From the NCBI RefSeq assembly GCF_004124325.1, contig NZ_QBDT01000001.1, forward strand, positions 5,208,001 through 5,272,000: a stretch of 64,000 nucleotides of DNA. Direction: 5' to 3'. The notes under the pieces were generated by a model. That model was not told the DNA's origin, did no database searches, and was given only the letters and a program-made list of their open reading frames with translations. Of the stretch, positions 58,736 through 62,171 are shown one piece after another; positions within the stretch are counted from its first letter, which is position 1, and the number at the start of each line of letters is the position of its first letter. Source of the stretch: Streptomyces sp. L2 (GTDB taxonomy: Bacteria > Actinomycetota > Actinomycetes > Streptomycetales > Streptomycetaceae). The position numbers were made by a program, and so were the translations under genes.

Positions 58736-58808
58736 GCCCCCGTAGCTCAGTGGATAGAGCAGGCGCCTTCTAAGCGCTTGGCCGCAGGTTCGAGTCCTGC
58801 CGGGGGCG
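58736..58808 (+). tRNA. tRNA-Arg, anticodon UCU
   Basis: Complete cloverleaf of 73 nt: acceptor GCCCCCG/CGGGGGC, D-stem GCTC/GAGC with loop AGTGGATA, anticodon arm GGCGC-CTTCTAA-GCGCT with anticodon TCT, T-arm GCAGG-TTCGAGT-CCTGC, discriminator G. CCA is not encoded. It decodes AGA, a rare codon in this genome. A CCCTCCC-ACC-GGGAGGG hairpin (58820-58836) follows and may end transcription. Confidence 0.97.
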
Positions 58809-60601: not shown

Positions 60602-60774
60602 AGGCCGGTGGTTCCCGATCCGGATGCCGGCGGTTCCCGATCCGGTGGCAGCCTGTTGATGGATGACCGGCGAAACCCCTGCCGCGGAACCGACGCCGCG
60701 CGCTGCTCGGTGGGCGACAGGCGTCTGGGAAAACCCATTGCGGACCTTCCTGGGACGGTTTGAAACTGAGGTCC

Positions 60775-60972
60775 ATGCGCGGATTCACCAGGACCGACAA
60801 CGAATTCCTCGTCTCCTGCCTGGGCGATCCGCAGCGCACAGTGGCGGCCTACCATGCGCTGCTGCGGCGCGGCGAGGAGGCGACGAGTGCCACTCGCCGT
60901 GGCCTCCACCACGAGAATCCCGCAGCCCGTGAGGGCTGCTGCCGCCTCCTCGACCACCTGGTCGACACCGAA
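60775..60972 (+). pseudogene. 5' fragment of a HEAT-repeat protein gene
   Basis: ATG 60775 opens a frame reading MRGFTRTDNEFLVSCLGDPQ and later RRGLHHENPAAREGCCRLLD, a typical HEAT-repeat pair. The similarity stops abruptly near 60970, where the sequence becomes the middle of a different gene in another frame. The remainder of the HEAT gene is missing, so this looks like a deletion joint. Confidence 0.6.
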
Positions 60973-61660
60973 GAGCAAGTCGCTCCAGGACATCACCGCG
61001 GCGCACCACAAGGTGCAGAAGCCGGTGTTGCTGGCCGGGATCTCGCGGACGTACCAGCCGAAGGACGAGGAGGGTGAGCAACTGCCGCCCGAGTCGACCC
61101 GCGTGCAGGTCAAGGGCGAGGACGCGCTGAAGGAGATGGCCGCGTCGCTGACCCGCCTCTTCGATGTGACCGCCACCAAGGACTGGGCCAACTGCACGGC
61201 CCGCGCGGACGTCGTCGTGGACGACAGGACCGTCGTCGCCGACGTCCCGGTCAGCTATCTGCTGTTCCTGGAGAAGCAACTCACCGACCTGCACACCTTC
61301 GTCAAGAAGCTTCCCGTGCTGGACGCCGCCGAGTCCTGGTCCCTGGACCCCTCGACGGACTGGTGGAAGACCGACCCGGTCCGCACGATCCGTACCAAGA
61401 AGGTGCCGCGCAACCACGTCAAGGCCGAGGCGACCGAGAAGCACCCGGCGCAGGTCGAGGTGTACTACGGGGACGTCCCGATCGGTTACTGGACGACCGT
61501 GAAGTTCTCCGGAGCGCTCCCCGTACGGCGGGTCAACGAACTCGTCGAACGGGTCGAGAAGCTGCAGCAGGCGGTCAAGTTCGCCCGTGAGGAGGCCAAC
61601 GGCGCCGAGATCACCGATCAGCGGGTCGGTGACGCGGTGTTCGGCTATCTGTTTGAGTGA
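60971..61660 (+). pseudogene. 5'-truncated conserved actinobacterial protein (recalled as DUF7873-like)
   Basis: From about 60971 the frame reads KSKSLQDITAAHHKVQKPVL, ISRTYQPKDEEGEQLPPEST, LFDVTATKDWANCTARADVV and KVPRNHVKAEATEKHPAQVE, and ends FAREEANGAEITDQRVGDAV / FGYLFE. This is a well-conserved actinobacterial family of unknown function. The expected first 10-20 residues are replaced by the out-of-frame HEAT fragment, so no proper start remains, although an upstream ATG (60854) gives a 268-aa fusion frame. The gene ends about 140 bp before the first tRNA-like element. Most of the protein is intact, so loss is recent or an alternative start is used. Confidence 0.6.
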
Positions 61661-61704: not shown

Positions 61705-61799
61705 GTGCCGCGTCGCTCGGACAGCATCATGAACGCTCCCGTGCGCGAGCGCGGGGGTGCGCCACTGGCGCGGGCCGGCATGAGGACCGGTTCGCGTAC

Positions 61800-61933
61800 G
61801 GAGCGCAAGCTGAAACTGAAGTTCAGGCTGATCACGCGGTAACGGTGGAGGTTCGAGTCCTCCCCCCGGCACCACGCGCCGGGGTGGCCCAACATGGCAG
61901 AGGCAGCCGCGATCAAGCTCAGATTCTCGCTCC
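61800..61933 (+). ncRNA. Permuted tRNA-like element 1 (YrlA-type Y RNA candidate)
   Basis: Order is 3' half, then 5' half. 3' half: anticodon-stem strand GCGGT (61836-61840), T-arm GGAGG-TTCGAGT-CCTCC (61847-61863), acceptor CCCCGGC (61864-61870), then ACCA. After CGC comes the 5' half: acceptor GCCGGGG (61878-61884), TG, a D-arm starting GCCC and ending AGGC, then GCCGC (61906-61910). Acceptor strands pair 7/7 and anticodon strands 5/5 (6 with the next C-G). Outer flanks GGAGCG (61800-61805) and CGCTCC (61928-61933) also pair. A normal-order tRNA cannot be folded. This is the fold of bacterial YrlA RNAs, in which the tRNA-like module is closed at the acceptor end and opens through the anticodon stem into the Ro60-binding stem. 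Ends are estimated. Confidence 0.7.
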
Positions 61934-61967
61934 AGTCTCAGTATTGCCGCCGATCGCCGGGTCGACC

Positions 61968-62075
61968 GGGGACGGACGAGCGCCGTCGGATGCGAGTTCG
62001 ACTCTCGCCTGCACCTCTTGCACGCTGCGGTAGTTCAAAGGAAGAACACGACGGCCTGATGACTGATCCGTCCTC
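61968..62075 (+). ncRNA. Permuted tRNA-like element 2 (YrlA-type Y RNA candidate)
   Basis: Same order as element 1. 3' half: CGTCG (61984-61988), T-arm GCGAG-TTCGACT-CTCGC (61992-62008), acceptor CTGCACC (62009-62015). 5' half: acceptor GCTGCGG (62024-62030), TA, D-arm GTTC-AAAGGAA-GAAC (62033-62047), CGACG (62049-62053). Acceptor strands pair 6/7 with one G-U. Anticodon strands pair 5/5, extendable to 7. Outer flanks GGGGACGGA (61968-61976) and TCCGTCCTC (62067-62075) form a 9-bp stem. Unlike element 1 there is no CCA after the acceptor. It starts 35 bp after element 1. Confidence 0.65.
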
Positions 62076-62080
62076 TTGAA

Positions 62081-62171
62081 CGCCGCCGGCGTGCGCAATT
62101 GGGTGGCATCCCCAGGGGCCCGGGAGCTGGATACGACTCCCGGGCTCCGCCACGTCCGGGAAGCGGCGGCG
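62081..62171 (+). ncRNA. Third structured element: 12-bp minihelix with GCCA (possible array end)
   Basis: GGGGCCCGGGAG pairs with CTCCCGGGCTCC (62115-62126 with 62137-62148, one G-T) around the loop CTGGATACGA. This is an acceptor-plus-T-stem-sized helix followed by GCCA. GTGGC/GCCAC (62103-62107, 62149-62153) and CGCCGCC/GGCGGCG (62081-62087, 62165-62171) can close around it. No D-arm or TTCGA T-loop is present, so it may be a decayed third unit or a terminator. Confidence 0.4.

Follow-up and report, generated by a model that had tools for sequence, protein, structure and literature searches.

What two consecutive tRNA-like elements represent in a Streptomyces chromosome, when each carries its 3' half ahead of its 5' half, is the question raised by this locus. 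The elements lie near the end of the window, by which we mean the whole 64,000-nucleotide stretch of Streptomyces sp. L2 DNA that was analysed. An earlier note had read them either as Y RNAs of the YrlA type, possibly orphan, or as permuted tRNA genes. That note overlooked the DUF7873 gene at 60854-61660 and the single larger conserved region.

Organisation of the locus

The DUF7873 (PF25283) gene occupies 60854..61660 on the plus strand, with a Pfam match of 3e-111 that starts at protein residue 39, and the RNA features follow it on the same strand. A check of the window sequence showed that the sequences and pairings of both tRNA-like elements agree with the earlier description. One or more putative 5' leader hairpins of the RNA, suggested by sequence and alignment and variable between relatives, fall at 61736..61800. 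The first domain (61801..61933) was delimited by an RNAalifold consensus of 102 sequences and consists of helix P1, in which GAGCG (61801-61805) pairs with CGCTC (61928-61932), together with the permuted element 1 that it carries (61836..61910). Pairing, statistics and a covariance model identify element 1, whose parts run in the order anticodon-stem 3' strand, T-arm, acceptor 3' strand, loop, acceptor 5' strand, D-arm and anticodon-stem 5' strand. Its T-stem (61847-61851/61859-61863) leads into the acceptor strand CCCCGGC (61864-61870), which pairs 7/7 with GCCGGGG (61878-61884) across the closed acceptor loop ACCACGC (61871-61877), and its anticodon stem joins GCCGC (61906-61910) with GCGGT (61836-61840).

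The second domain (61948..62105, from the same consensus) is enclosed by the closing helix P3, formed by 61948-61951 with 62102-62105 and by CGCCGG (61955-61960) with CCGGCG (62086-62091). Inside it lies element 2 plus a flanking stem (61968..62075), identified by RNAalifold, covariation and a covariance model. The flanking stem pairs 61968-61976 with 62067-62075, CGTCG (61984-61988) pairs with CGACG (62049-62053), and the T-stem (61992-61996/62004-62008) is followed by the acceptor strand CTGCACC (62009-62015), which matches GCTGCGG (62024-62030) at 6/7 positions across the loop TCTTGCAC (62016-62023). A conserved inter-stem motif, TTGAACG here with the consensus cTtAAacg, is found at 62073..62083, and the alignment places a 3' terminal hairpin with the loop GGATAC, a likely terminator, at 62116..62147.

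ARAGORN detected no ordinary tRNA at the elements, its sole call within the window being a tRNA-Arg at 58736, which agrees with the original contention that this is not a normal tandem tRNA array. On the RNA region no Rfam 15 family reached its cut-off; YrlA came nearest, below threshold at 29.9 and 22.6 bits. Single-sequence folding energies (z = -1.14 and -0.23) did not separate the permuted fold from chance, and the minimum free energy structure contained the permuted stems of element 1 and lacked those of element 2. The permuted fold is evident from the comparison of relatives and not from folding energy. With its 6/7 acceptor, element 2 of the window fails the strict 7/7 rule defined below, yet it reaches 70.9 bits with a covariance model built from the element 2 of relatives, and element 1 reaches 46.7 bits with that same model.

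The window's copy of the DUF7873 gene is itself atypical. Roughly the first 13-15 usual codons and the upstream region have been replaced by other sequence (60760-60975), and blastn matches to relatives start at 60971, inside the gene; the truncated reading frame preceding 60971 is presumably a HEAT-repeat-like protein, judging by its appearance. This copy may therefore be altered while its RNA looks intact.

Permuted tRNA-like folds in related loci

A strict element was defined as a T-arm 3' of the DUF7873 gene whose 7-nt acceptor strand finds a perfect complement, itself followed by T, within the next 90 nt. Duplicates and short ends, 17 of 186 loci in all, were removed before counting. Such a partner accompanies 171 of the 175 T-arms in 103 bacterial loci, where shuffling predicts 1.2, and 93 of the 135 T-arms in 66 viral/other loci (64 viral and two from a plasmid collection), where it predicts 1.4. 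The region upstream of the gene in the same 66 loci served as a control and gave 5/157 T-arms against 2.9 expected.

The 266 elements examined further were selected on a 7/7 acceptor, a following T (position 8), a TTCRR T-loop and a T-stem of at least 4/5 pairs, so that the rates of acceptor and T-stem pairing and the presence of U8 are partly built in. The variety of pair types, the D-stem, A14, the D-loop GG, the 15-48 pair and the anticodon stem lie outside these rules. Several pair types occur at all seven acceptor positions of the 266 elements. Covariation was analysed in an alignment of element 2 restricted to two-element loci with acceptor loops of at most 14 nt, in which 34 of 37 such rows could be aligned. 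In these 34 copies, both partners vary at 15 of the 16 pairs that make up the T, acceptor and D stems, and pairing is retained in 99.3% of cells. The stems reach a covariation score of 0.843, compared with 0.241 after shuffling and at most 0.173 when the strands are slid. In two-element loci, each element has a D-stem of 3-4 bp in all but one of its 107 copies, a count that was run without a null. An anticodon-stem helix of at least 5 bp was found in 21/35 viral/other copies of element 1, against 5.5 with swapped partners, and in 22/34 copies of element 2, against 6.2. The bacterial sequences are much alike, and here the corresponding counts were 36/53 against 27.7 and 34/49 against 25.4.

The tertiary contacts of tRNA extend across the permutation. 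The 15-48 (Levitt) pair is A-U or G-C in 255/266 elements, and it fits in 89 of the 93 viral/other elements (64 A-U, 25 G-C), where shuffling gave a mean of 52.8 and never as high a value in 2000 trials. Strictly viral elements account for 85/89, the two plasmid-collection loci (L115 and L116) contributing 4 of the 93. The signal resides in element 2, since the viral/other element 1 is almost wholly A-U (34/36). A14 occurs in 260/266 elements and the D-loop GG in 265/266; together with the 15-48 pair, these features indicate that the two halves appear to form a genuine tRNA elbow. These results bear out the permuted tRNA-like topology that had been proposed. Both elements are circularly permuted tRNA-like folds.

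A trivial origin, in which tandem tRNA genes or chance pairings have been misread as permuted, has a negligible probability. Tandem tRNA genes can imitate the fold to a degree, as three matches of 58-60 bits elsewhere (L207-L209) proved on examination to be tandem tRNA-Asn genes. Against such an artefact are the ARAGORN result, the scarcity of upstream T-arms in the viral/other loci and a stem covariation far above that of shuffles, and at this locus the covariation and the 15-48 test refute it.

The complete elbow (U8 being set aside as a selection rule) also bears on the proposal that these are permuted tRNA genes, which would mature into working tRNAs through cleavage of the acceptor loop and ligation of the anticodon loop. 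The acceptor ends are closed by a loop, of 5-9 nt in 178/266 elements, a configuration that RNase P and tRNase Z would cut open. The earlier note had pointed to an ACCA encoded in the acceptor loop of element 1; this is correct for the window, but the loop begins with NCCA in only 75/266 elements, so the feature is not conserved. No anticodon loop is seen in the alignments, where both halves continue into conserved core strands. Known permuted tRNAs, moreover, depend on archaeal/eukaryal BHB splicing according to an excerpt of PMC3978253. We consider it very improbable that these elements are permuted tRNA genes in the sense of Cyanidioschyzon or Thermofilum.

A larger conserved region behind the DUF7873 gene

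The bacterial comparison covered a DUF7873 gene in 80 loci of named genomes and in 26 loci from 25 of 296 genomes of the class, the window's included. Of the 106 DUF7873 loci, 104 have a motif resembling GCGCAAGCTGAaaCTGA at 43-274 nt from the stop codon when a few mismatches are tolerated; it is absent only at L106 and L107, which represent one divergent gene. After this motif come, in order, element 1, the core TcAatCTCAGacTcTcGCTCCAgtcTCAgcA, element 2, a TTAAACG-like motif and a terminal hairpin with a GGNTAC loop. For 102 sequences, RNAalifold recovers the permuted element 2 inside its closing helix, as well as P1 around element 1. The tRNA-like stems of element 1 itself do not appear in that consensus because some of the 102 sequences lack element 1 or vary in it. 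Just one strict element is present in 31/103 bacterial loci. Element 1 is replaced by other sequence in some of them (L002, L086, L093, L095 and L098), and others, the window among them, are near-misses.

Helix P1 was evaluated in two ways. In an ungapped test, a helix of at least 5 bp was found in 18/32 viral/other loci against 9.3 with swapped partners. A column-based test gave 110/170 cells against 100.1 (5 of 500 swaps as high), and 163/225 against 148.5 (1 of 500) when bacterial rows were added; this test is weak because divergent loci misalign, and the ungapped test is the clearer one. The pattern TYAARYG is present in 76/102 bacterial and 31/57 viral/other loci with an element, 35-75 nt past the start of the last acceptor 5' strand, and the window's variant TTGAACG falls outside it. 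A terminal hairpin with a strict 7-nt loop was detected in 43/102 bacterial and 17/57 viral/other loci, where 0.7 and 0.3 were expected; the window's hairpin has a larger loop and falls outside this rule. Taken together, the two elements, which had been thought to be independent RNAs of 110-135 nt, look instead like two domains of one conserved region of ~350 nt directly 3' of the DUF7873 gene.

Linkage and distribution of gene and RNA

Analysis of the 296 genomes of the class showed a match to the element-2 covariance model beside DUF7873 in 24 of the 25 genomes that carry the gene; the sole genome with no adjacent match is the divergent G197. L083 and L101, two of the rows from which the model was built, are drawn from this genome set. 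The model matches in 264/296 genomes overall, and since YrlA-like RNAs and tandem tRNAs also match it, only matches beside DUF7873 were counted. In the plasmid collection, the four records with the RNA are the same four records with DUF7873. A search of IMG/VR with the core pattern returned 9 stretches: 5 have DUF7873 upstream, 3 of them on contigs that the DUF7873 search had already turned up, 2 lie in unrelated sequence and 2 have less than 350 nt of upstream sequence. As a test for RNA without DUF7873 this is small, because the loci were mostly found through DUF7873. The fold and the gene-RNA linkage are nevertheless well supported.

DUF7873 was found in 14 of 28 genomes sampled from the window's genus, Streptomyces, and in 6 of 296 genomes of the phylum, all six from that genus. 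The gene-RNA pair occurs in Streptomyces, in other actinobacteria and in phages of Arthrobacter, Gordonia, Rhodococcus, Pseudanabaena, Vibrio, Klebsiella and Rhizobium. In Streptomyces chromosomes the cassette occupies several different sites. The window's flanking genes are almost absent near the cassette elsewhere, with one match (L075, 46%), and clustering of the flanks gives 46 groups on the upstream side (100 loci) and 38 on the downstream side (76 loci). With flanks so varied, genomic position gives no clue to function. The non-actinobacterial control genome of Deinobacterium chartae gave matches for both TROVE and DUF7873.

Depending on the query, tblastn detected DUF7873 in 72 to 79 phage records, including phages of Vibrio, Gordonia, Rhizobium, Klebsiella, Serratia, Arthrobacter, Pseudanabaena, Rhodococcus and Microcoleus and, with one query only, Prevotella Lak phages; two protein-based scans of IMG/VR added further loci. 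The cassette stands within tRNA arrays in Mimi, Phendrix, NiceHouse and RHph_TM30, and ARAGORN tRNAs occur elsewhere in the fetched flanks of 33/64 viral loci. Several phage loci show an annotation gap of ~400-530 nt 3' of the DUF7873 gene. Two strict permuted elements each are present in Mimi, Phendrix, NiceHouse, Pam2 and both Klebsiella phages examined, one each in Ziko and the Vibrio and Rhizobium phages examined, and none in the Microcoleus phage (L113) or a Lak phage (L186). In total, 9/66 viral/other loci have no strict element, and the covariance model still matches 7 of these 9, with no match at L133 or L186. Its matches are weak at L145 and L161, and at L113 the match is ~2 kb off, past a HEARO RNA and a reading frame.

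Several annotations and insertions at phage loci deserve mention. In the Microcoleus phage (L113 4887-6398) a HEARO RNA and a CDS lie downstream of DUF7873, and at L130, 3' of DUF7873, what appears by eye to be an HNH endonuclease-like frame comes after the acceptor 3' strand of element 1. Both cases suggest insertion of mobile elements into the RNA locus. In Klebsiella phage FBKp24 (L182 4018-4097) a 'tRNA-Sup-TTA' is annotated inside the RNA region, probably a false call due to the permuted element. Gordonia phage Phendrix (L109 2030-2558) has a tmRNA match inside its tRNA array. At Rfam cut-offs, eleven related loci matched only tRNA models, one tmRNA and one HEARO element, and we therefore found no Rfam 15 family for the RNA.

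The DUF7873 protein

With a Pfam score of 371.4 bits against a cut-off of 27, the window's protein passes the gathering threshold for DUF7873. An AlphaFold2 model built from 43 sequences has a mean pLDDT of 95.6 and predicts long helices and a beta-sheet part. Its best neighbour among solved structures is PDB 3kdq, a Corynebacterium protein of unknown function, with a Foldseek E of 0.087 and a large rmsd; the two have no sequence match, and any relation suggested by the model would be remote at most. DUF7873 proteins are slightly acidic (median pI 6.3 and net charge -2 across 61 proteins), and the family is not an obvious RNA binder, a point against the pairing proposed below. Scans gave no PHROGs match for four DUF7873 proteins and no PADLOC model for two.

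Relationship to Rsr and YrlA

The elements share with YrlA the same permuted domain with D-arm, T-arm and closed acceptor arm, so the likeness remarked upon earlier is real, and this shared topology favours the view that they are YrlA-type Y RNAs, possibly orphan, acting as partners of Rsr/Ro60. YrlA is the nearest family, as such a view would have it, but the YrlA model (RF02553) gives 29.9 bits to element 2 (E 0.0002) and 22.6 bits in a second match, far below its cut-off of 69. The cut-off alone is indecisive because RNAs linked to rsr miss it too. The Ro60/TROVE (rsr) gene, for which a search of this genome had been suggested, is indeed present, 885 kb from the window's RNA, and directly upstream of it are two permuted YrlA-like RNAs (L001 254-383 and 507-616) that score 44.2 and 34.9 bits. 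The YrlA model cut-off may thus overlook actinobacterial Y RNAs. A YrlA gene usually, but not strictly, lies beside rsr/TROVE, and the neighbour gene of the window's RNA is DUF7873, not TROVE.

Co-occurrence of the two protein families gives a mixed picture. Within the class, TROVE is commoner in genomes with DUF7873 (17/25) than in others (20/271), as would suit an Rsr partner, but within the window's genus the counts are 9/14 with DUF7873 and 6/14 without, so part of the excess may be taxonomy, and the TROVE search gave no match in 8/25 DUF7873 genomes. TROVE was found in 7/40 viral records with DUF7873 and in none of the other 33/40, some records being fragments; a single TROVE query matched 350 of 50,697 phage records. 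TROVE and DUF7873 may therefore keep company in phages, though large phages are over-represented among the 40. A TROVE gene neighbours the cassette at two loci, L139 and L149. The TROVE gene of L139 is immediately preceded by its own three YrlA-like RNAs, which are separate from the element in the cassette. Because rsr in this genome has two higher-scoring Y RNAs of its own, and because many DUF7873 genomes and viral records gave no TROVE match, we regard it as unlikely that the elements are Y RNAs of Rsr. In our reading there are two parallel pairs, one of Rsr and YrlA and the other of DUF7873 and the twin RNA.

Proposed role of the cassette

Computation establishes the fold, its conservation and its position behind DUF7873 in actinobacterial chromosomes and diverse phages. 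The gene-RNA pair is real and widespread, and the RNA looks like an undescribed structured RNA. In the open-licence PMC literature we found no description of the RNA or of DUF7873, and an account in a closed paper is possible. The explanation we favour, and think probable, is that the DUF7873 gene and the structured RNA of ~350-420 nt, with its two loop-closed permuted tRNA domains, form an RNA-protein pair that engages tRNA-recognising proteins. The RNA would be transcribed as one molecule ending at the terminal hairpin, and DUF7873 would bind it, by analogy with the binding of YrlA by Rsr. The exposed T/D elbows and acceptor stems could then recruit or occupy proteins that recognise tRNA, candidate targets being processing or modifying enzymes, PNPase-like degradation machinery and tRNA-cutting defence nucleases. 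During phage infection, translation might be protected or rewired by the cassette.

In YrlA itself, Rsr is reported to be held by the basal stem and PNPase by the tRNA-like domain, with DusA and TruB acting as modifying enzymes (excerpt of PMC8394870). It has also been proposed that the tRNA-like domain of YrlA competitively inhibits an anticodon nuclease (excerpt of PMC7790460). A concrete form of the explanation above would extend that role to the present RNA, which would act as a tRNA decoy and soak up anticodon nucleases or tRNA-targeting toxins while DUF7873 stabilises or delivers it. The occurrence of the cassette in phage tRNA arrays as well as in bacterial chromosomes suits such a decoy. 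The anticodon loop, the usual target of anticodon nucleases, is missing, however, and the PADLOC scan of two DUF7873 proteins also speaks against a decoy function, which in this specific form we judge improbable.

Returning to the RNA-protein pair, a wider interpretation is possible, which we advance tentatively. DUF7873 and its RNA, with two L-shapes side by side, may constitute a second, Ro-independent class of tRNA-mimic ribonucleoprotein that is spread among phages and actinobacteria and acts by capturing either the machinery that binds tRNA or tRNA-cutting defences. The Y RNAs of Ro60 are already known as bacterial examples of permuted tRNA mimicry. If the interpretation is true, the RNA, found in jumbo phages as well as others, would represent a second widespread mimic family, with a different protein next to it and two mimics in each molecule, and the system would be a new form of phage-bacterium conflict based on RNA mimicry. 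DUF7873 would gain a testable role, and the cassette would provide a way to study how phages manage the tRNA pool.

Comparison with known systems

Two-piece (permuted) tmRNA also has a permuted tRNA-like domain that could be cut in its acceptor loop. The RNA described here differs in having two tRNA-like domains with D-stems, and a tmRNA match is absent in the region. The permuted tRNA genes of algae and Thermofilum likewise place the 3' half before the 5' half and join them at the acceptor end, whereas the present elements show no anticodon loop and no conserved CCA, and their halves sit within a larger region. GOLLD and ROOL resemble the present RNA as large structured phage RNAs of unknown function that are often near tRNA islands (excerpt of PMC12286853). 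Rfam gave no match to GOLLD or ROOL in the region analysed here, nor one at cut-off in the eleven related loci, and the RNA here is distinguished by its two permuted tRNA-like domains and its constant protein neighbour.

The closest parallel is the YrlA/Rsr pair (RF02553). Both systems have a permuted tRNA-like domain with the T-arm before the D-arm, a closed acceptor end and a stem replacing the anticodon, and in both an RNA gene adjoins a protein gene, a layout also seen in the rsr pair of this genome (L001). They differ in that YrlA is one RNA of 90-150 nt (excerpt of PMC8394870), compared with two tRNA-like domains in ~350 nt here, and in that DUF7873 replaces TROVE and the RNA lies downstream of the gene. 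The conserved core, P3, the TTAAACG-like motif and the GGNTAC hairpin also set the RNA described here apart from YrlA.
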